Of a stretch of DNA of 64,000 bases, positions 1,079 to 61,788 are shown in pieces. Source of the stretch: Balamuthia mandrillaris (Eukaryota > Discosea > Longamoebia > Balamuthiidae); assembly GCA_031835245.1 (NCBI GenBank), contig JAVKOQ010000038.1, positions 20,001 through 84,000 on the forward strand, in the 5' to 3' direction. A program made the position numbers and the translations under genes. The notes under the pieces were generated by a model that did no database searches, was not told the DNA's origin, and was given only the letters and a program-made list of their open reading frames with translations. Each line of letters opens with the position of its first letter. The stretch's first letter is position 1.

Positions 1079-4000
1079 ATGTCAAATGTTAATCGGAGGA
1101 AAAGTGTTGGAGACACTCTCGATGGGGGAAGCAAAGATAAGTTAGGAGGTGGCGGCGGATCAGCTGTAGGAAGCCCTTCCCCCTCTCCTGCTAATGGCTC
1201 AGGAATCAAAAAGGTTGGGGTGATGTTTCGTGGGTCCACAGGAAGTCTTCGAGGCCCAATGGTCAAAGCCCACGACGAACCTCCAACCAAGAAAGCCAGC
1301 ACCCTTCGAGTCAAAAGCAACCCCCAAGAAATAGATAAGCTGGGCACAAATGGTCCTTCGCAGGTTTGTCCTACTATGATGCTATCGGCTATCCTTCTCC
1401 AGCATACTAACAAATCATCTACAGAGCTCAATGGAGTTAGGTGAGTCTTCCTCGGACGAAGACGACCAGAGCGGTGTCCCCCTGCGATTCGGTGGAAGGA
1501 GTGCCTCCACACCCAACACCAAAGGCAGCGTGGGAAAGTCGGTGACCATCAGCACCAAGAACGCGGTACAAAGTCAAATAGAAAAGGAGATAGAGGAGGG
1601 GAGGGAGAAGGAAAGAAAGGCGCAAGTGGAAAGGGAGAGAGAGAAGATCCGCAAAGAAAAGAGAAAGAGCTTGAGCATGCTCAAGGACAGGATGAGAGCT
1701 CAAAGAAAAGGAGAAGCCGATCCTTCGGATGAGACTGGAGGAGACGGGAGTGAGTCTCCCTCGCCCTCCGCTTCAGCTGCTTCGTCTTCGACGATTGTTC
1801 AGGTCTCTGGCCAGAAGAGAGGAAGCATTGGAGGAGTGACTATAGGAGGGAGTGGGAGTAAACCTGGAAGCAAGGCTGGCAGCAAGCCGGGAAGTAACAT
1901 CAAGGAAACAGAAGCCCAAAAGACGGAGAGAGAAACTAAGGCAGCGGCCAAAGAAGCTGAAAGGAGAGAGGCAATGGAGAAGCGGTTGCAACAGGAGGCA
2001 GAGGAGATGAGAAAGAAGGAAGAACGAGAGGAGGCGGAACGAAAGAAGGCAGAAGACTTGAAGAAGGCAGAGGAGGCCAAAAGACAGGCAGCAGCTGAGG
2101 AAAAGGCTCGGAAAGCTGCAGCGGCAGAGGAGGCAGCTCGGAAAGAAAAGGAAGACAAGGAGAGAAAGGAAAGGGAGAAAGAGAAGGAGAAACAAAAGGA
2201 AAAGGAGGAGAAGAAAAAGGAGAAGCAAAAACAAAAAGCCAAAAACGAGGATGACGAGTGGGACTTGGGTTCCGATGAAGAGAAAGAGAAAAATGCAGGC
2301 AAAAGAGACAAAGGCAAACAGAAGGACGGACGACCGCCTTCTGGGGGAGGAGGAGGAGCAGGAGAACTTCAAGCTTTGGGAGAACTCTATGAAGATGGCA
2401 CCGAAGTCTCTGAAAATTTTGTACGCCCATCACCTTGCCTTGCTGCGAATTCGCAGCCATCAAACTGACCTGTCCCACGTTCTTACTTTTCCAACAGGAC
2501 ATACATCTCATTGGCGTTCCGGCCGCCGTCAAGAGAATGCGAACGGACGTCATCAATGGTCTCTCGGAGGAAGAAGTCTTGAGGCGACGCGAGCATCACG
2601 GTGAGAATGTCATTCCTTGCCAGCAGCTTGATGATGACTACGTTCAGTACGTCTTTGCTTTCCCTCTTTATCCTCGCAGTTGCATTCTCTTGTCTCTTCT
2701 CTCTTCTCGCATCGTTTTAGTGTAAACCATCATAAAAAACAGCCTTCCTGACGAGATAGTACGAGTACGGAGAGATGGCAAGAGCGTCAGCGTCCCCTCG
2801 CGAGAGCTCGTCATCGGCGACATTGTGGAGTTGAAGAAAGGGGAGCGCATCGTGGCCGACATGTTGGTCATCAAAAGCATGTACATGATGGTGGATAACA
2901 GCCTCATCACTGGCGATCCCGAACCCCAATACCGCAGCATCAACCACACCACAGAGATTGCTCTCGAGACGGCCAACCTCTTGTTCTACGGCACGGAGGT
3001 GACGGCCGGAGAGGGCCTGGGGTTGGTCTATAGCATTGGAGGAAAGACCATACTAGGAAGAATGTTGTTGTATAACGAAGAGTCGCAGGCTAGAAAGGAC
3101 AGTAAGCTGAGTGGACCGAGGGCAAAAAAGAACATCCTGAAAATGTTGCAAAAGAAGGGCATTCAGTGCAAGGACGAAAGAGCAGGTTCGTTTGCTCGCT
3201 TTCTCTCTTTATCTCTGTGAACAGAAGTAATAATCAAATCGGACAGCTGCTCGCTTGGGAAAAGTAACAGCGTTGGTGGTGGACATGGGCGGTGTAATTA
3301 CCGAAAACAAGCTCAGTATTTGTTCGTTTTCCCTCCTGTTTCTTGTTCTTGTTCTTCTTCTTCTTCTTCTTCTTCTTCTTCTTCTTGTTCTTCTTCTTGT
3401 TCTTCTTGTTCTTCTTCTTCTTCTTGTTCTTCTTGTTCTTCTTGTACTTCTTGTTCTTGTTCTTCTCCTTCTCCTTCTTGTCCTGTTGTTCTTCTTCCTC
3501 CTTTGGGTTATATAATTCTCATATGAACAAAACAGCCTACCTACTTATGGATGGACAAATCTTCAACACAGCAGAGAAGATTCCAGATGAGAGTCGCTCC
3601 TTCCCCATCGTCATGCAGACAGCTGTCCTTTCCACAAATGCCTACTTCAGCAAACCCTCAACGCCAAGAGTGGTGACCGGCAAAACGAGGAAGGATCGAG
3701 TGGAGAAGCTCTTTCATGCGGACAACATGGAGGTGGTCGAGTACGACCTTACAAGCGGCGCTCTGCTGAGGTTCTATGAGAAGTATCCACCAAAGAAGAG
3801 GGACAAGCCTCGAGAGTCTTCTCTTTACAGCGAAATGGTTTGATCTTCTCTCTTGCTCTGTCTCTCATGAAACGCTAACACAACCAATGTGCCAAAAGGA
3901 ACGAGAACTTTACCAGAAGGTGGCTGAAGATGAAAGCGATATTCGCGTCAGTGTACACAGAGTGCCCGCAGCGGAATGTGAGGAACACGAAAAGCCAGAG

Positions 4001-5107
4001 GCAGAGCTGACACCCGAGGAGAAGAAGAAGAAGGAGGTCCGGGGGCGACAAACCTTTGTGGTCTGCATGTACGGACCCTTCAACGTCATCCTGCAGCATT
4101 GCACCTCCATCCTCTACAAGGGAGAGCGCTTCAAGCTGGACTCTGCCGCCGCCGACAACCTCAAGGCCAAAGCCAACGAGCTCTTTGCATACGGAGAGCG
4201 ATCGGTGGCCCTGGCGTGGCTGCCTCTCTATGAAGACAAGTTTCCTGAGGACTATGAGTTCGACTCCTTCTCCATGAACTTCCCCGTGGTAAGCTTTCTC
4301 CCTTACTTTCTTTCTCCTTGTCCGAGCAAAGAAGTTAACTTCCGGGTATACAAACCTAACAGAAGGAAATGTGTTTCGTGGCATTGGTCTCGACGGCTCC
4401 TCGCCCTATGCCGAACATCCACCGCATCATCAGCAAGTGCAGAGAGGCCAAGCTGAGGATCGTGATGGTCTCCAGTGAGGGTCCAGCGGCCGTAAGCCTT
4501 CTAGGCAAGAAAGTGGGGCTCCTCACGCACGACACCGTCTACGACATTGCAGAGAAGGAAGGCTGTCGCGTGGACGAGCTCACGAGGAAGCAGGTGGAGA
4601 GCGCCCGGTCCGTGGTGATAGATGGGCTCAGCCTCATTGCCACGGAACAGCTCACCAAAATTTGCCAAAGCTATGATGAGGTCGTCATTGCGAAGTATGA
4701 ATTCCCTCTTTCGCTCCTCTTATCTCTCTTACTCTCTCGTGGAAGAAACTTACCTAGTGAAACAAACCAGCACGGACCCAACACAAAAGATAAAAGTGGT
4801 GCATGCCATACAAAAAGTGTCGGACTCGGAGGTGGTGGCCTGCACTGGCTTTCTTCCCAACGACATGCCGTCCCTTGCACAGAGCGATGTTGGGCTGGCA
4901 ATGGCCGGCAGCATGGAAGCCGTTCAACAGGCTGCAGACGTGGTGCTCGGCGAAGGCTCCCTTGAAACCATCCTGGAAGCCGTTGAGCTTGGTATGTTTG
5001 TTTCTTTGCTCTTCTTCTTCTGCTCTTTGTTAACCCTTTCGTGTTCTGTTTTAAAAACCACTACAGTGAAAAAGAAAAGCGGAGGAGGTGGATGCATGGT
5101 TCAGTAG
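1079..5107 (+). CDS. Membrane-segment-less P2C (Na/K-ATPase-like) P-type ATPase homologue with C-terminal CaaX box; likely pseudo-enzyme
   Basis: Ten exons: 1079-1363, 1425-2420, 2498-2646, 2743-3185, 3247-3315, 3536-3837, 3899-4288, 4363-4694, 4771-4991, 5067-5107. They sum to 3228 nt in frame, 1075 aa. Residues 1-420 are low complexity, largely a charged Lys/Glu coiled coil. Then come, in order, the P2C cytosolic elements: N-terminal GLSEEEVLRRR, an A domain with VDNSLITGDPEPQ (TGES replaced by TGDP, about 533-536), a P-site VVDMGGVITENK (Asp637 kept, DKTGT replaced by DMGGV), an N domain with MYGPFN in place of MKGAPE (about 805-810), TAPR for DPPR, SSEGP for TGDHP (about 915-919), and TGFLPND for TGDGVND (about 1014-1020). 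The places where M1-M4 should lie have no hydrophobic stretch, and M5-M10 are absent. The protein ends KKKSGGGGCMVQ, a basic patch plus a CaaX box with Gln last (farnesyl-type). Ion transport is therefore excluded. A lipid-anchored scaffold or regulator is my inference. Confidence 0.85.
3340..3480 (+). repeat. Intronic TTC/TTG microsatellite in the P-ATPase-like gene
   Basis: A run of TTC units broken by TTG fills most of the intron 3316-3535. It is pyrimidine-rich on the sense strand. Long open frames through it (poly-Ser, poly-Leu, poly-Phe) are artefacts. Confidence 0.9.
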
Positions 5108-5252: not shown

Positions 5253-6410
5253 TTAATGGTGTTGCGGGGAAGAAGAGTCTTCAGAGGATGGTTGAGCTTG
5301 AAGAATGGAGCCATCAGCAAGCGCTTGAACGTCCTCCCAGGAAACAAACTTTTGGCCATATTCGCAATAAGCATTGAGGAGCACGTCGATTCGTTCGTTG
5401 CTCTCTGATAATATCCGAAACAACTGCAAAAGAAATGGTGAAGAAAAGGCAGAGAAAGAGCAACAGAGAAGAACAAGAGAGAAGAGGAGAAGGGCAGAGA
5501 AGCAGAAAAGCAAGGGAAGAGAAGAAGAAGAAGAAGAAGAAGAAGAAGAAGAAGAAGAAGAAGAAGAAGAAGAAGAACAAGAACAAGAACAAGAATAAGA
5601 AGAAGAAGAAGAACAAGAAGAACAAGAAAGAGAAGAAGAAGAACAAAGAGAAACAGACCAGCAGAGGAGCGGAACAGCAGAGACGAAAGTTGACGAACGA
5701 GAGAAGAGAGGCAAAGAAGCAGACAGAGAGGGGCAAAGAAGTTAGCATAGAGAGAGAGATGAGAAGAGAAGAGAACGAGGGCAGTCCTTCCACTCAAAAC
5801 GTACCTCAACTCCACTCAAGGAGGCGGCCTGCATGCTCTCAATGCCCGTCAAGCCAAGGAACTCCTCCAACCGCCGCTTCGAGCTGAAGGCCGGCAGCTT
5901 CATGGTATTGGGCGGCTCGGCAGGGTCCACCGAAGGCACCATCAAAAAGTTCAACTCTGGCCCGTTCTCCCCCTTGCGCCCTATCTCTTCCTCGCCGCTT
6001 GGTGGTTGAGCGAGGACCCACAGCCGGGTTTCTGCGAGGAGGCGGAGCAGGGCTGGGCTTTGCTTGATGTCTCCCATGGGAGCACGCAGCAGCTCCACCT
6101 CGAGGTCGTTGGTGGTCCACAGTGGCGGCGTTGTTGCTGTTTCGCGTTCTTCATAAGACGAAGAAGAAAAAGGGGAGGAGGGAAGGAAGGAAGGAGGAAG
6201 GGAGCGATCCTTTGCGATGTTGGGAGGAACAAGAAGAGCAGTCTTGTGGGATGAAAAGGAGGTGAGCGTTGGAAGAGCAGAAGAAGGACGATGAGCGGGT
6301 AAAAGAGTGGTGAGACTCCTCCAAGGGCTCTGAGCCTTGTGGAGCTGTCGGGCCTGGCAGAAGGAGAAGGAGAAGGAGTATGAAGAGGAGGAGGAGGAGG
6401 CGACTCTCAT
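5253..6410 (-). CDS. SseB-like domain protein with probable mitochondrial presequence
   Basis: Two exons on the minus strand, 6410-5805 and 5423-5253, give 258 aa in frame with a TAA stop. The intron 5424-5804 (GTACGT...TTTGCAG) is filled by a TTC repeat on the sense strand. Residues 1-70 are rich in Ser, Arg, Leu and Phe with almost no acidic residues, as expected of a mitochondrial targeting peptide. The middle has the pattern of the SseB N-terminal family: a hydrophobic strand LWVLAQP, a variable loop, NFLMVPSVD, then KLPAFSSKRRLEEFLG, matching the family's 'lPAFTSxerL' signature. Eukaryotic members are of unknown function, so no role is assigned. It shares a short promoter region with the methyltransferase gene that starts at 6647. 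Confidence 0.7.
5519..5645. repeat. (GAA)n/(TTC)n intronic microsatellite
   Basis: Nearly pure GAA followed by GAACAA-type units on the plus strand, inside the intron 5424-5804 of the minus-strand SseB-like gene. It is thus TTC on the sense strand. Confidence 0.95.
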
Positions 6411-8695: not shown

Positions 8696-10450
8696 ATGGG
8701 GAGTGAGGACGGGACCCCACGCTCCGTCAGACCGCCAGGCGGGCTGGCCCGGCACATACCGTTGTGGCTGGCCATAGCGGTGAGCAGCGCCACGGTCACC
8801 TATCTGCTGTTGGCTGTTTCGGAGGCGGAGAACGCAGCGCCTTCGTGCATCCAGCTCTCCCGTGAGCCCTCCTCGCTTTCGCGCCTTCATGAGGACACGA
8901 TGAGACAAAAGTACTTGGAAGTGCTTCGTGACTCGCTGACGGCCGCTGCTTTTCGGAAGACGTAAGCCACCTCCTTCCCATTGTGTTGTCTTGTTACCAG
9001 CGGATGTTTACCCTTCTCTTTGTACAGGGAGATGGATGCATCGGCGTGCTGGGTTGAAAAGAAGAAGATAAAGCCGTTTTGTCCTCCAATGAACCCTGTG
9101 AAAAGACACGAAGGAGGAGGTTAGTTCAGTACCTTTTTTTTTTGTTCTCCTTGTGCTCATCTCAGACGCCCGGTCTCCAGACTGGCCTATCACGGGCGTG
9201 TCCATGATTGGAACGTTGCGTATGAACAACATCCGTGAGCTGTTAGAACGAGCTGAACAAGAAAACATTCCCGGTGACTTTATGGAGGTTGGTATGCTTG
9301 AGCTGCTCTTCTACATGTTCTCCTTGCTGTTGTGGCTTTGTTGCTTATTCTCACAGTCCTCTTCTCACCGTTATCCTTCTGACTTTGTATCCTCACCAAA
9401 GTGTGGGGTATGGCGAGGCGGAGCATCCATCTTCGCACAGGCTGTTCTGTCGTCAGCCAACATCGACCGTCACGTCTGGTTGGCCGATTCCTTCCGAGGC
9501 TTGCCTCCTCCTCGAACCTCAAAAGACACGACTTACTGGAATGAAATCAGCTATCTTGAGGTTCCGAACCTTCCTTTACTGTTCCGTTTTGTTTCAAACA
9601 CGGGACCTACCCTCCTCCCTCCTACCCAACAGGTGTCAATGGAGGAGGTGATCGAAAACTTCAAGGCTTTCGGGCTCTACCACCCCGAGCGGCTTCACTT
9701 TTGCAAAGGATACTTTGTGGACTCCCTCCCTCATTGCCATCCCTCCAAGGTTGGTTGCTGTGATGATTCAATGCGGTCACTTTACTCACTGCAAAGGTTA
9801 TTCCCAACCATCAGATAGCGGTGCTTCGAATGGACGGGGACATGTACGAGTCCACCATGGATCAGCTTTTCAATCTCTATCCTTTGGTCCAATTTCCCTC
9901 TTCTTTCCCTCTTTTCTTCTCTTCACTGTATCTAACGCATCCCCACTCACACTCTCCTCTCTCACCGCTCACTCTCCTCTCCGCCTCCTCTCGCTTGTCG
10001 TTTCATCATCATTCTCTTCTCTTCATCGTTCTCTTCTCTTCTCTTCATCGTTCTCTTCTCTTCATCGTTCTCTTCTCTTCTCTTCATCGTTCTCTTCTCT
10101 TCTCTTCTCTTCTCTTCTCTTCTCTTCTCTTCTCTTCTCTTCTCTTCTCTTCTCTTCTCTCTTCTCTTCTCTTCTCTTCTCTTCGTCGTTCTCTTCTCTT
10201 CTGGTCGTTCTGAATAAACAACAAGCAGGTTTCCTTGGGTGGGTTTGTTATAGTGGACGACTGGACCATTGAATATGCCAGAGAGGCCGTAAAGGACTTT
10301 TGGGAGTGGCATGGCCTCCTGGAGGAAGTGACTCCCGTTAGCATAGACCGCTACAGCATCTACTGGCAAAAGCCCAGGGAGGTCTCCTTGCAATGGCATC
10401 GGTATGAGGCCCTCCTCCCTGGGAAGGGTTCCCCTCCGGAGAAGCCATAG
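8696..10450 (+). CDS. TylF/macrocin-O-methyltransferase family protein, copy 2
   Basis: Seven exons: 8696-8961, 9028-9119, 9181-9287, 9402-9560, 9633-9749, 9815-9886, 10229-10450 (TAG), 344 aa. Exons 3-6 have the same lengths as copy 1 (107, 159, 117, 72 nt), so the architecture is duplicated intact. A hydrophobic anchor (LWLAIAVSSATVTYLLLAV) lies at about residues 23-41. The catalytic motifs are complete: MIGTLRMNNIRELLE, CGVWRGGAS, HVWLADSFRGLP, LRMDGDMYESTMDQL, GGFVIVDDW, and the C-terminal WHRYEALL. The acceptor of exon 3 is ambiguous: AG at 9164-9165 also keeps frame and adds five residues; I prefer 9181 because it matches copies 1 and 3. This is the copy most likely to be an active sugar O-methyltransferase of the secretory pathway. 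The intron 9887-10228 is filled by CTTCT repeats. Confidence 0.83.
9990..10205 (+). repeat. Intronic CTTCT satellite with TCATCGTTCT interruptions (TylF copy 2)
   Basis: Tandem CTTCT pentamers interspersed with TTCATCGTTCTC units inside intron 6 of copy 2. The same unit mixture fills the homologous intron of copy 3 (11960-12385), so it pre-dates or moved with the duplication. Confidence 0.9.
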
Positions 10451-18596: not shown

Positions 18597-20924
18597 TTAT
18601 GCGTTCTTTCTGGTCTTACGGGCTTTCTTCTTCCGTCCTTCCTCTTTGTCTTGTTGCTTCACCCCAACGGGGTTTTTGCTGCTCTTCGTTTTGTGGGTTG
18701 GTCGTACGACTCCTTCTTTGTCTTCTGCTTGTTTTGCTGCTCCCTTCTTCTTTGTTTTCTTGGTTTTTGTCAGGTTTGTGGGCAGGTCCTGGTTTTGCTG
18801 TGGGTGTTGTTGTTCGGTCGTTGATGACGTCTGAAGAAGAAGATCGGCGGTGGAAGATGTTCGTGAAGAGGATGATGAGAAGGTGCCTTTGGGGGCTACT
18901 AATGTCCATCCTCGAAACCTGCCTTTCTTCAGGTTGGCCACCATCGTTGGCGCCATTTCGAAGCTCTCGTCATCCAACAATAAGAAGCGATCGAATTCGG
19001 ATAAACTCATCCTCCAACTTGCTTCTTCATCGTCATCTTCTTTTTGTTGTGTTGATGCAAAAAGAGAGGCGCTTGATTTACTCATGTTTCCTCTAGCTTT
19101 TTCTCTTGACTGCGGAGAAATGAGATAAGAGAAAACAGCAAAAAGAGAAGCGAAATGAGAAAAGTCAAGAATGAAACAGCAAGACAGAAAGTAAAACCTT
19201 CGAACAAACAGGCTTCCCAGGAGGCGAAATTTTCTTTTGTTCAAGCGCATTCCAATCGATGTCAGCAAAGAAAGGATGGTGCTTGATGTCGTCACCACGT
19301 ATGCGTTTGTCTGGGTCGTGTTGCAACAATTGCAGCAAAAGCGAGCGAGCATCCGTGGATACCCCTGCAGCATCTTCCAGCGAAAACACGTGCTCCTTGT
19401 TCATCACCCGCTCCAGTTTCTTAGAGATATCTTCGCAGTGAAATGGTGCCTTTTGTTTGTAACAACAAAAAAATGGTAAGATAACAACGAAAAGGAAGAA
19501 TAAAGGAAGTAAAACGAAGGTCGTACCACTCCAAAAAGCATCTGATAGATAAGGTTACCAAGTTGCCACCAATCTGTGGTTTTATCATAAGCTCCTCCGC
19601 TCAATTCTTCTGGAGAGATATAACAATCCGAAGTAGAAGGGTTATGAATAGCATGCACTTGTTCAATGCTGTCTTTCTTAGGTCGTTTGAAATAAAACTT
19701 TGCAAGAATGATGTGTCCCTCTGCGCTGATGTAAACGTTGGAGGGAGCGAGAGCACCAAACACGAACCCTAATGCGTGAAGATGTTGAAGAGCGAGTACT
19801 ATCTCTGCGGCGTAGAATACAACTAAACTTTCCGGAAGGATTAGAGTTGTTCCTACTGCATGCTTCTCTGCCTTTTCTTTCACTTTTTCAGTCTCTGTTT
19901 TAGTTTGTTGAGGTTCTTTCCTTTCGAATAAAATGCTCTCCAACGTGTCTTCGTTGTGGAGGGTTTGGTAGATTATGAAGAAGTGATCTTCTGTGTCGAT
20001 TGTCCATTGAACAGGAAGAAGGAAAGGATGAGTGACGATCTTGTCCAACTTTATGGGAATGTCGTTTGCTTCTTGCTGCAGTTTTGCAGCATCGTTGTTG
20101 AGGCGCTCCTGTAGAATTTTTTTGTTGATGATAGAAAGAAAATGCTTGGATTGAAGCAGTCTGTGCCGCACGAGAAGTTCCTATAATGGAGCAAAGAAAA
20201 GCAAGCCAGGTGAACAAAAAAGGACAATGCAGCTATGGACAAAGAAATACTCACTCGTTCAAAGCTGGATTCACCCATGATAGTCAGTACGTCAAAGTCC
20301 TCAATTGTAACTTTATATTCCCTCAAAGAAAGACCTGATGGAAGCAATGTTGGCCGTTTGTCTTGCGCTGTCTTGTGTTGCAGTTTTTGTACTAAGGCTT
20401 CCACCATTTTTTGCATCTCTTTTAGTGCCTCAGATTCTTATTTTTGTTTATTTGTTTAGTTTGTTTAAAACAGATAAACAATTTGAAGTAGGAGCAGGAG
20501 CAGGAGGAAAGATAAAGAGAAAAAGAACATAAAGAAAGTGCACGAGAAAAAAACAAACCTGTAGAGGTTAGCTCTTCTTCTTGTTCCTCCATAATAGGAA
20601 TCTTAGTTGCGTCAAAGTTCGGTAACGCCTCTGAAGAAACACTGTTATTCTTTAGCACTAAACCTACGCAGTAAGCCGCTTCTCTGCGTATTTGAGAAGC
20701 AAATGAACTGTTGGCAACCAATGAGGACGAAGCAGACAACTCGTTGAGAAGGCCTAACGCTCTGCGCTTGATATTCACTTTAGAGGAGGCAGCAAGTGCC
20801 AACAACGGCTTTAACTTGATTTGAAGCGGTCCAACTATAAACCACATCATGAGATCACAAAAGCATAAGAAGCGGGAGGCAAGGAGGGAGGGAGAGAGGA
20901 GAGAGCGAGAGAAAGAGAGGGAGG

Positions 20925-22396: not shown

Positions 22397-25300
22397 TTAC
22401 CCAATTATGTAAAGCTCTATAATCATCCGGTTTGATGCGCAGTCCTGCTTGGAACTTTTCGTTTGCAATCTGAAAGTATTTTTCTGCTTTTCTGTCTCCT
22501 GTTTTAGTGGCAGCCTGCACAGATAACGCAGTTCCCTCCTCAAAAGATATTCTGTGGAACAAATAAGACGTTAAATAAAGAAAAGATAAAGAACATGAAG
22601 ATGAAACAAGAGAGAACCTGTGAGTATGTTTAACCACAGCGAACATATCGACGAGATCGCCTTGTGTGAGAGGAATGCGTAAAAGAGGCTGTAGTTTCTG
22701 TTGTCGAACATCACCCCTTGCATCTATTTGCAAGACAAAACAGAACGAATTAAAACATGTGATAAAGAAGGATAAAAGGAGAGAAAGAGAGAAAAAGAGC
22801 AACCTGAATCAATTATGTTTACAGCTTTCTTGTTGCCAACCGGTTCCTGCTCAAACTTCTCTTCAAGGACAGACCGCTTAAAGGAAACCCCAGCAATATC
22901 TTGCAATCGCTGAAACAGCGCCCGAGTGAGGAGAGCATCTCGTAAATCCCAACCCAACCGTCCTTTGTTTTGTTCCAAAAAAAGAATGCTATTATCTTCA
23001 TCCTCTTTCTGTTGTTGTTCTGTCGCATCTTTTTCCTCATGTCTGCTGCCACGTCTTCTTTTTTCTTTTGCAGATGATGATGAAGGAGAGAGCGACTGTG
23101 CTGAAGTGGAAGATGAAACAACGTTGTTGGGGGCACCATCAGTATCGTGTTTCATAGAAAGTTGAAGCTGCAACAATTCTTGAGGTTGGAAGGTGGAAGG
23201 AAAGCGTTGGGCGATGCTTTGAGGAAGACATGTTGCCCAGTACTGAGCAGAGGATGGAGTGTTGGAAAAGAGAATATTAAAGTATCGAAGAACAATTCGG
23301 TGGTAGTCTTCCTCTTTAGAAGACTTAAGCTTGCGTAATTGTGCACTACATACATAAATGTTAAAGGAAATAGGTAAGTATAGGAAAAGCTAATGTAGAG
23401 AATGGATATGCATACCGAAGGATGTTTTTACATGTGCGTGCAACTATCTCTGTGAAAACGAGAGCTCTGGTAAAACTGGAGTGTACATGAGAGCGAACAA
23501 TTCCCAAACAGAGTACGTTAATTCCCTTTCTGTGAGCTTGATTAACCAGCTTTGCAAACTGTTCTCGTCGTACAAGATCATTTGGTGACGAATCTTTTTT
23601 ATGTTGCTGTGTTTCTTCTTCTTCTTGTTCTTTGCTTCCAAAACATTCATCCAGCCATTGACCGAATTCTTTGCACAGCACTTCCTTCATTCGTTTGGTG
23701 GCTGCGACCACTTCCGCATTGTGCTGTTGAGAACCTTCGATAGGCCATCTCGAAAAAGCATCGCTGCTGAGCGCCACTGAATTGTTTTTCACCAGTTCCG
23801 GACGAAGCAGACGATACAAGAACGAACCTTTCACGCTGTGACAATGATTAAAACGAGGGAGAGAAGCGGAGAAGTAGAAAAGAGATACCCTTCAGCTGGT
23901 GTTTGTGGAGGGAAAACTCGGGCAGTGTCCAAGACGTAGAAGCGATTGTCTTTGCCCAAATGGCCTTCAATGTCTATGGGGCCATGAATGAGGATCTTTT
24001 CGGTTCTCTCCCAGTTGTACACATAATGCCCTTTCAAGTTGAGTATATTTGCTGCAGCTTCCATCCGAGCGTTCATTTCGGGAACGTCAGCATGGGTGGT
24101 CCTTCCCCCATCAGAAGAGCCATAAATCAACGTGTTTGGTCCTAGTGGCAATATAGACTCTGCAATAAGTCGATAGCCTCTTTTGTTGAATAAAAAGAGG
24201 TTAGACAGGCAAATGAAATAAACCACGATAGAGAGAGCGCGCAAGAGAGAATAAATTGAAGACGAAAAAACATGCCTGTAATCCACCAAAACCATGAGAG
24301 GAAAGTGAAGTCCTTTTACCCTACAATCCATATACTCCATCAAGCCTTTTAATTCGTGACCTGCTGCCTTTTTTTTTTTTTTTTTTTTTTTTGTGTATGT
24401 GGCCCAAAGTCTTAGCTTAGAATTCACGAGAAAGAGAGAGGGGGAGAGAGGGAGAGAGAGAGAAGAGATAAAGAAAGAGAAGAGAGAGGGAACCTTCATT
24501 ATGTATTCATCTCCTCCATAGAGACCATGTTTGTCCACAGCAATCTTGAAGAAAATGCCTTCGGGTGCATAAATGTACTTCTCTCCTCCAGCGATGCCTA
24601 TCCGATCAACAACAACCAAAAGCACAGGACAAGAAATAAGAACAGAAGAACAAGAACAACATATGCAGCAGTTCTAACCTCCTAGAGAAGTGGTAGGGAG
24701 GATAGTCTTTCTGCTATCAGGCAGGAAGAGCTCTCTGATGATCCGGGTGCCAATGTCCTTGGCCACCTCCGCAAAGTCCTCGCAGAGCTTCCGCAGCTGA
24801 GCCGTTCGCTTGACCTCCGTGGCAGGGTCGATGCGGTCCTCATCTAACGAATTACGGCTCTCGAGCAACTCTTGAAACTCATCATTCCACTTTCTTCCTT
24901 TTTTTTTTTGGGGTTGTTTTTAACGCATGAAAGAGAGCAGCAAGAAGCAAGAACTGAAGACAGCAGACAAAAGAAAGAAGCAAAAAAAGAAGAAAAAATC
25001 TACCTGTTACGTTTTGCAGTTCGCTAAAGGCATGAACCTCATGATCGGTGGATGAAGCGCCACCACTTGCTGCTGTCGTGGCAGCAGTAGTAGCAGTAGT
25101 TCCTGTTGTGGAATAGATTCCCGACGGAGCGATTAGAAGGCCCGGATAGGCTTTTCCGCTCTCTACAACAACAGATAGATCATGCGTAAGTCTTAGAAGA
25201 AGAACAAGAAGAAGAACAAGAACAACAACAAGAAGAAGAACCAAGGGAGAACAAAAAGAATGAGAAAAGAAAGAAAGCAAGAAGAAGAAGAAGAAGAACA

Positions 25301-59901: not shown

Positions 59902-60348
59902 ATAAACGAAAGAACGCAATAAGTTTTTAGTTCGTCAGAAGTCCAAGGTTGGCCTTGCTGTCCTGCCGGCTCGTCTTGGAGCCAAAGTCACAAGGTTGCC
60001 GTTTTGCTGGAGAGGGAGAAGAAGGAAACCGCGACAGAACAAGGAGGAAACAGGACAGCGAGTCACAAAGACTGGTACTTGTCCCAGACGCCGCTCCCCA
60101 GCCGAGCCCGCGCCGCAGTCCTCGTGACAATGCAGAGAACACTCTGCTCCTTCTTCCTCCTCATCACCTGATTGAGCGGAATTCCACGATCGCTCCGCCA
60201 CCAAAGCAATCCCTGTCGACGACTTTCGATCGATCCCAGAAAAAAATCGGAAATCGAAAAAAAACTACGAAAACTATTTAAACCTCTTTTCATTTATTTT
60301 CATTTATTTTCTTGGTCACGACAAACCAACAAGCATTACCGGAACCAC
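59902..60348. other. Intergenic region with a GC-rich spliceable segment on the minus strand
   Basis: 59930-60170 is GC-rich. On the minus strand it has a good donor (GACAA|GTACC, near 60080) and acceptor (CTCTCCAG, near 60005). Joined frames are open but short, none has a convincing start, and no family is recognised. The remainder (60190-60348) is AT-rich and probably the BCS1 promoter; it contains CGATCGAT near 60225. Confidence 0.35.
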
Positions 60349-61788
60349 ATGGAGGAGGAGGAGGGAACCAATGTCGAAGCCGGTGGAGGAGAAGGGAGCC
60401 TCTCCTTCCACCAACTGTTGTTCCTGGTGGCCGGCGGCGTGTTCATCGCGCTGGTGCAAGGGACGCTGCGGCAGCTGCTCGACCTCCTCTGGCAGCAGGT
60501 CACCACCACGCTGGAGGTGAACAACCAGGACGAGGCCTTCTCCTGGTTGATGGAGTGGCTGGCCGTGCAGCCCTTCAACGACCAGGCCCTGCTCATGAGC
60601 CTCACCTCCAAACGCCCGACCAAGCGCCGGAGGAAAATGGGGGCCACGCCGGCCCGCGCCGTGGCCGAGCGTCGGGCGGAGAGACGGGGGTGGAAGGTGA
60701 CGGTCACCCCAGGCCCTGGCGGCGCCCACCTCTTCCTTCACGGCGGGACGCTCGCCTGGATGACCCTCACCGTCAGCGACGTGGTCACGAGCCAGAGGTA
60801 CGGGGCCTCCAGCAGGGTCATGCAGACCCTGCGCCTCTCCTGTCTGGGCCGGCGGCGAGGGCTGCTGCTCTCCATCGTGGAGGAGGCCAAGCGGCAGCAC
60901 CTGGTCAAGAGCGTGGCGGAGGACAAGGTCCTCATCTACGTGCAGAAGGACACCTGGAACGGCGGGTGGGGCGGCGCTGTGCCCCGCTCCATGCGCGGGC
61001 TGGAGAGCTTGGTGCTGGATGAGGGCCTCGCCGAGCGGGCCGTTGCGGACCTCCAGCGCTTCTTCGACTCGGAGGGGTGGTACCTGCAGCACGGCATCCC
61101 CTACCGGAGGGGCTACCTCCTCTACGGCCCGCCGGGGACGGGCAAGAGCTCCTTCGTGCTGGCCGTGGCCAGCCACTTTCGCATGGACGTGTGCTACCTC
61201 TCGTTGAGCGTGGGGGATGGGCTGAACGACCACCAGCTCAGCCAGTACTTCAACAACGTGCCGCCCAACAGCATCATCCTCATCGAGGACATCGACTACG
61301 CCTTCCCTGCCATCACTGCCAACAGCCACAAGAAGGGCAAGGGCAGCACGGAGGAAGGAGGAGGAGGCGGCGGCGGTGAGGAGGACGGGGAGGATGAAGG
61401 AGGAGGAGGGGAAGGAAGCAAGTTGACGCTGGCCGGCTTGTTGAACTGCATCGATGGCTTGGTGGCCCAGGAGGGGAGCATCTTGATGGTCACCACCAAC
61501 CACCCCGAGAAGCTCTGCCCGGCCTTCCTGCGCGCCGGCCGCATGGACGTCAAGCTCGAGTTTGGCCATGCCACCAAGGAGCAGGCCCGACGCCTCTTCC
61601 TCTCCTTCTTCCCGGAGGAGGAAGACCTGGCCAAGGACTTTGCGGCGGGCATCCCCGAGAAGCGAGTCGCCCCGGCGGAGCTTCAAGGCTGGTTCCTGCG
61701 CCACCGAGACGACCCCGTTGGGGCCGTGGGACGGGTGAAAGAGCTGCTCTCGGAGCTCGACCTGGAGGACGAGGAGGAGAGGCAGTAG
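60349..61788 (+). CDS. BCS1-like AAA ATPase
   Basis: Intronless 479-aa gene. A hydrophobic N-terminal segment (LLFLVAGGVFIALVQGTLRQLL, about residues 23-44) is followed by a BCS1-type N domain (SWLMEWLAVQPFN, WKVTVTPGPGGAHLF, MQTLRLSCLGRRRGLLLSIV). The AAA domain has Walker A GPPGTGKSS, Walker B IILIEDIDYAF, sensor 1 SILMVTTNHPEKL and the arginine-finger region FLRAGRMDVKLEF. A Gly/Glu-rich insert sits between Walker B and LTLAGLLNCIDGL. BCS1 inserts the Rieske protein into mitochondrial complex III, but related AAA proteins act elsewhere, so only family level is assigned. Within the window it is the most GC-rich gene and the only long gene without introns, which may mean a retrocopy or later arrival. 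It converges on the nucleoporin gene, 64 bp apart. Confidence 0.85.
   Translation: MEEEEGTNVEAGGGEGSLSFHQLLFLVAGGVFIALVQGTLRQLLDLLWQQVTTTLEVNNQDEAFSWLMEWLAVQPFNDQALLMSLTSKRPTKRRRKMGATPARAVAERRAERRGWKVTVTPGPGGAHLFLHGGTLAWMTLTVSDVVTSQRYGASSRVMQTLRLSCLGRRRGLLLSIVEEAKRQHLVKSVAEDKVLIYVQKDTWNGGWGGAVPRSMRGLESLVLDEGLAERAVADLQRFFDSEGWYLQHGIPYRRGYLLYGPPGTGKSSFVLAVASHFRMDVCYLSLSVGDGLNDHQLSQYFNNVPPNSIILIEDIDYAFPAITANSHKKGKGSTEEGGGGGGGEEDGEDEGGGGEGSKLTLAGLLNCIDGLVAQEGSILMVTTNHPEKLCPAFLRAGRMDVKLEFGHATKEQARRLFLSFFPEEEDLAKDFAAGIPEKRVAPAELQGWFLRHRDDPVGAVGRVKELLSELDLEDEEERQ

Follow-up and report, generated by a model that had tools for sequence, protein, structure and literature searches.

The gene and its product

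The window, that is, the whole stretch analysed here, comprises 64,000 nucleotides of the Balamuthia mandrillaris genome (contig JAVKOQ010000038.1; C37:20001-84000 in a 64.8 Mb assembly of 775 contigs, which was the genome searched) and carries, at positions 1079-5107 of its plus strand, a ten-exon gene for the cytosolic head of a P-type ATPase of the Na,K-ATPase class (P2C), devoid of membrane helices and ending in a CaaX box. A preliminary description of the window had joined the ten exons in one frame, and this is borne out: all introns are GT...AG, the frame runs over 1075 codons plus stop (chance of such a stop-free run at the base composition of the window, ~4e-25), and the product matches the NCBI record P0001 of this species at every residue. 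RNA-seq reads are named among the input to the genome annotation of the species (PMC10471605), from which we infer that P0001 derives. Its record name is 'Potassium-transporting ATPase alpha chain 2', a transporter name that is misleading here as well as for a second membrane-less protein described below.

Residues 1-427 of the product are of low complexity, with residues 1-95 taken as probably disordered and two long charged helices predicted at 140-191 and 258-370, and residues 428-1075 constitute the pump head by Pfam, PDB-sequence and TIGRFAM-type profile matches. The A, P and N domains stand in the pump arrangement and are of the Na/K-ATPase type, in agreement with the first reading: PF00690 scores 23.4 bits (cut-off 20.4), PF00122 covers residues 480-595 above its cut-off (family E 1.2e-20), and a phmmer search of PDB sequences places H,K-ATPase alpha 2 at E 1.4e-65 and animal Na,K-ATPases at 1e-54 to 1e-60, the first row outside P2C following at 7.3e-23. 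No match to the hydrolase family PF00702 is reported at E 0.001. Among 19 families TIGR01106 (P2C) comes top with 239.2 bits, the next family reaching 112.4 bits; the broader TIGR01494, with a cut-off of 62.3 bits, scores 74.8 bits in this protein and only 58.6 bits in the second. Together with the tree given below, which sets the protein with P2C rows, these profile scores uphold a P2C origin and disfavour one from P2A, P2B or P2D.

P2C alpha subunits (Na,K-ATPase, H,K-ATPase; TIGR01106) are thus the best profile, PDB-sequence and tree match of the ten-exon protein and share with it the order and fold of the N-terminal, A, P and N regions, but the latter has no membrane helices, and hence no ion sites, five changed motifs, a basic CaaX tail and 239 bits, short of the curated whole-protein cut-off of 946 bits. 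It is of the same fold and descent as P2C pumps, yet lacks the membrane segments and motifs that mark the family. Outside the coding parts, long TTC/GAA-type repeats occupy 3316-3535, inside intron 5, and 5520-5640, downstream of the gene.

Table 1. Coordinates of the ten-exon gene, its motifs and the second gene (window positions unless a contig is named; motif coordinates were worked out from the exon table)
Feature	Position	Strand	Basis
Exon 1, residues 1-95, low-complexity N-terminus	1079..1363	+	exon table; pLDDT ~30
Exon 2, residues 96-427	1425..2420	+	exon table; structure prediction
Exon 3, residue 428 onward, Cation_ATPase_N part (PF00690)	2498..2646	+	profile
Intron 3, 96 bp, phase 2, site of missing M1-M2	2647..2742	+	exon table, alignment
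Exon 4, actuator (A) domain and internal joint of missing M3-M4	2743..3185	+	PF00122, alignment
TGDP, where pumps have TGES	2909-2920	+	alignment
Exon 5, P domain start	3247..3315	+	exon table
DMGGV, where pumps have DKTGT (Asp kept)	3282-3296	+	alignment
Exon 6, N domain, first part	3536..3837	+	exon table, structure prediction
Exon 7, N domain, remainder	3899..4288	+	exon table, PDB-sequence match
MYGPFN, where pumps have MKGAPE	4067-4084	+	alignment
Exon 8, P domain continued	4363..4694	+	exon table, PDB-sequence match
SSEGP, where pumps have TGDHP	4471-4485	+	alignment
Exon 9, P domain end, to point where M5 would start	4771..4991	+	PDB-sequence match
TGFLPND, where pumps have TGDGVND	4844-4864	+	alignment
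Intron 9, 75 bp, phase 1	4992..5066	+	position and phase same in second gene
Exon 10, encoding VKKKSGGGGCMVQ (polybasic run, glycine spacer, CaaX box), then stop	5067..5107	+	exon table
CMVQ, farnesyl-type CaaX box (with stop, 5093-5107)	5093..5104	+	sequence
L027, second membrane-less P2C-type gene	G000:C11:270663-275205	minus	protein search of genome

Absent membrane segments, changed motifs and the tail

The highest 19-residue Kyte-Doolittle mean in the ten-exon protein is 1.27, the usual limit for a membrane helix being 1.6, and alignment to the P2C pump P0123 leaves it without M1-M2, M3-M4 and everything from M5 on, so that neither the ten membrane helices nor the M4 ion-site motif PEGL of P2C pumps has a counterpart. 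Intron 3 sits at the M1-M2 joint and intron 9 at the point where the pump part stops before M5, whereas exon 4 contains the M3-M4 joint, with intron 4 following some 15-25 residues later; at 96, 75 and 61 bp, respectively, introns 3, 9 and 4 are too short for helix pairs. Furthermore, none of the 23 matches of PF00689, the M5-M10 domain, in the genome lies near either membrane-less gene. The earlier claim that all membrane segments are lost therefore holds, and transmembrane exons hidden in the gaps, which would have undone it, are rejected on intron length, stop codons and the absence of PF00689. A single assembly accident is disfavoured by the second gene, which has the same joints on another contig. 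We regard the architecture of a membrane-less pump head as well supported.

The five motifs by which P2C pumps are recognised (DKTGT, TGES, KGAPE, TGD, TGDGVND) are all changed (5/5), in the very letters first reported (Table 1), and the catalytic motifs are accordingly broken. The protein keeps D637 (the Asp phosphorylated in pumps), K995 (the Lys of motif III) and the closing Asn-Asp (Asn1019, Asp1020), as well as Gly640, Thr643 and Arg849. As to the ATP contacts, which we take to be Phe475, Lys480 and Lys501 in Na,K-ATPase numbering, the first has no counterpart, the second is replaced by Asp and the third by Tyr, the alignment being weak around Phe475 and Lys480; the role of nucleotide sensor proposed in the preliminary description is weakened by these changes. 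Among 66 near-invariant columns, each shared by at least 41 of 45 pumps, the ten-exon protein occupies 58 and keeps the pump residue in 35 of them; counted by hand, the five catalytic motifs account for 9 of 20 and all other columns for 26 of 38, a modest contrast.

The tail VKKKSGGGGCMVQ starts at the point where M5 would start. Its CaaX box stands behind three lysines and four glycines, and the CMVQ followed by a stop, as originally read, is found both in the exon table and in P0001. A CaaX box with terminal Gln is a farnesyl signal, a rule that CMVQ fits, and the genome contains a farnesyltransferase-beta-like exon (contig C24, E 4.6e-22 to 1n94_B). Judged by its sequence, the ten-exon protein would be lipidated and tethered to a membrane.

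A second gene and the pumps of the genome

Protein search of the genome also yielded, on contig C11, a match that leads over from A to P domain, leaving no space for M3-M4 between them. Spliced, this locus gives seven exons and 1239 residues, ~30% identical to the ten-exon protein, and the product equals the deposited P0121, which bears the same record name as P0001. It too lacks M1-M2, M3-M4 and M5-M10 by alignment, and its motifs are changed differently (TGVK, DTEGL, RGMPE, TPLHP, TGESVSE); they were taken from a separate alignment, as the automatic 66-column alignment misplaces this protein at DKTGT. Large low-complexity inserts lie in its N domain. Behind the same intron as in the ten-exon gene follows a basic tail that ends EIVKASRKKKKRSRDKVSSAAGAP (also given as KASRKKKKRSRDKVSSAAGAP) and has no CaaX box; basic charge, not CaaX, is therefore the feature shared by the two tails, and the CaaX end is not common to both copies.

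Several introns are shared as well. Two alignments put 'IA|N'/'FA|S' (phase 2) and 'EL|V'/'EI|V' (phase 1) in the same columns, and 'EM|ER'/'EE|AR' (phase 0) falls in the same column in one alignment only, two others placing this poorly conserved stretch elsewhere; the phase-2 introns at the M1-M2 joint lie ~five columns apart, and the phase-0 introns before KEMCF/QGKFT ~four. A tree built from 31 rows and 540 columns groups the two membrane-less genes together at 100/99 and has both in a set with eight P2C rows and P0002 at 98/97. The branches of the two genes are long, at 3.0 and 2.5 changes per column, and since the tree program flags this together with odd composition, each gene was also placed alone: the set with P2C rows and P0002 then receives 100/97 for the ten-exon protein and 95/95 for the second, and a stricter P2C clade without P0002 receives 86/74 and 83/77, respectively. 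From the shared joints, the introns and the tree grouping it follows that the loss of the membrane parts, with a short basic exon taking the place of M5-M10, most likely preceded the duplication, and the existence of the second gene suggests that the membrane-less design is old.

Besides these two genes, animal Na,K-ATPase matches 21 other loci of the genome, of which 11 were profile-tested and score best as P2D (7), P2B (3) or PMR1-type P2A (1); none of these 11 is an intact P2C pump. The best-scoring match is a pump on contig C53 (38%), itself best as P2D, although some loci surpass its identity on short stretches, up to 60% over 40 residues. The P2D pumps, which are fungal ENA-like, lie at C53, C21 (three places), C203, C204 and C216. 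Inspection covered only the surroundings of DKTGT at C216:76k, C619, C11:409k, C120, C63, C39 and C61, and the motifs only at C202; left out were C427 and C43 of the 21 loci and C143 and C252 among the A-domain matches, and C427, C43, C143 and C252 have the same scores as C234, C39, C128 and C82, respectively, and so appear to duplicate them. It is thus likely, if not proven, that the Balamuthia genome has no P2C pump, and the suggestion that the head regulates a real Na/K-type pump has lost ground. In a published survey (PMC9609216) some amoebozoan sequences, including Dictyostelium, fall in a group of protist proteins related to Na,K-ATPase alpha, and the absence of P2C pumps from Balamuthia would therefore be a loss. 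PF00287, the beta subunit, has no match in the genome, nor has it any in 14 control genomes. A P2B-like pump (L049; G000:C234:65500-70000, minus) reads LAGLPMMIAIVLSL before DKTGT, where other P2 pumps have (V/I)PE(G/A)L, and its M4 Glu appears lost.

No ortholog stands among the matches listed in the protein searches (best 120 of 367; all 49; all 13), which are weak, in that neither membrane-less gene turns up with the other as query; those with the window gene list no named animal Na,K-ATPase, and the one with the second gene lists some. As such searches miss relatives near 30% identity, they do not argue that Acanthamoeba or other amoebae lack orthologs. One hit, P0165, for which PF00122 is the only listed Pfam domain, has DKTGT and, by eye, hydrophobic segments.

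Interpretation and surroundings

We assign a probability of roughly one half to the reading that the ten-exon protein is a pseudo-pump, that is, a catalytically dead P2C head, probably tethered by a farnesyl group and serving as a non-catalytic binding scaffold, whose membrane parts were lost before the duplication. A P2C pump would have shed all membrane helices and its catalytic cycle and then have duplicated into at least two Balamuthia genes. The CaaX Cys would be farnesylated and, with the lysines, would hold the head to the cytosolic membrane face where M5 once entered, and there the head may act without catalysis, its A, P and N surfaces and the long charged N-terminal helices bringing together partners, possibly the cell's remaining P-type pumps (P2D, P2B) or its cytoskeleton. 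The Asp and Lys kept in both copies speak against a wholly passive role. More tentatively, and at somewhat less than even odds, we propose that the P2C branch of Balamuthia consists of non-pumping heads only, cut at the same three joints and duplicated, one of which may have been re-attached by a farnesyl group as a scaffold or signalling protein.

Those kept residues lead to the main remaining rival as to chemistry, a reduced HAD-type activity in which Asp, Lys and Asn-Asp would bind phosphate, Mg or a phospho-ligand, or slowly form phospho-Asp, making the protein a sensor or weak phosphatase. The second protein likewise keeps Asp409, Gly412, Thr415, Arg988 and Lys1149, and DxGGV is similar to the nucleophile loop seen in certain other HAD proteins; but the hinge Asp is Phe in the ten-exon protein and Glu in its paralog, the TGES Glu has become Asp and Val, respectively, DKTGT has lost its Lys and both its Thr, the ten-exon protein no longer has the ATP contacts and PF00702 finds no match at E 0.001, all of which makes this activity unlikely. 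As for the tail, it might be a basic protein- or lipid-binding peptide in which CMVQ is coincidental, any membrane association being electrostatic, as for the second protein, in which the same intron is followed by a tail lacking a CaaX box. From the composition of the two proteins, a C-x-aliphatic-[MSQAC] end is expected by chance at ~5e-4 per protein. Set against such a coincidence are the fit of CMVQ to the farnesyl rule, its place behind KKK and a glycine spacer and the farnesyltransferase-beta exon; we think it rather unlikely.

That the two genes are relics, functionless and decaying copies of a lost P2C pump, would agree with their long branches, their broken motifs and the lack of an ortholog among the matches listed. 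Such a pseudogene status is nevertheless disfavoured, and we deem it distinctly improbable, given that no stop interrupts the 1075 and 1239 codons of the two frames, that both equal deposited gene models and that 35 of 58 near-invariant residues are kept against a best identity of 29% over the tree columns. Least probable is an error of the gene model, with true transcripts that carry membrane helices. Intron 9, having no in-frame stop, would if retained add a hydrophobic stretch before KKKSGGGGCMVQ and give a membrane-tailed form; T-rich introns, however, tend to read as hydrophobic stretches when in frame, and the deposited model splices intron 9 out. A retained intron 3 meets a stop, the gap introns are short, the M3-M4 joint lies inside an exon, PF00689 has no match here, and the second gene lacks the same segments, its last intron (115 bp) shifting the frame if retained.

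P-type ATPases generally count as integral membrane proteins. The archaeal soluble 'P-type ATPase' MJ0968, a small P-domain/HAD phosphatase with intact chemistry, resembles the Balamuthia head in being a P-type core without membrane helices, but the Balamuthia protein is a complete A-P-N head whose motifs are altered. K-Ras4B-type polybasic farnesylated proteins share the C-terminal lysine run and CaaX box, their cargo being a GTPase instead of a pump head. A parallel may also be seen in the scaffold roles of Na,K-ATPase alpha1, in which the cytosolic head likewise offers a protein-interaction surface, although that head is either part of an active pump that spans the membrane or an engineered fragment, whereas the Balamuthia head is encoded by a natural gene. 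For instance, a soluble Na,K-ATPase head piece (CD2) is described as a Src SH2 ligand that binds Src and, in cells, increases its basal activity (PMC4638348). A review covers non-pumping roles of the intact enzyme (PMC6152704), and direct Src binding has been questioned, to judge by the title of reference 115 in that review. Among the matches considered from titles and abstract starts of open-licence PMC papers we found no description of a complete A-P-N head without membrane helices, in line with the preliminary statement that no described protein with this combination was known; the sequences themselves are already public under their misleading name. Two diverged natural examples make it possible to test which functions are left to the cytosolic head when it can no longer pump; they bear on the argued question of non-pumping Na,K-ATPase functions, and both proteins provide a soluble natural head for structural work.

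The neighbouring frames (10 of the 41 of at least 220 codons in the window) show no link to pumps. Upstream of the gene, 199-495 holds by eye a Cys-rich RING-like pattern (CYNC...CWACC...CQQC). A TylF-type O-methyltransferase frame lies at 9102-9815 (E 2.4e-33), and frames at ~7.4-8.4 kb resemble it by eye, perhaps as a tandem pair. Further along the window follow a protein kinase frame (19407-20180), a CLU-domain frame (23834-24673) and a BCS1-like AAA frame (60172-61785).

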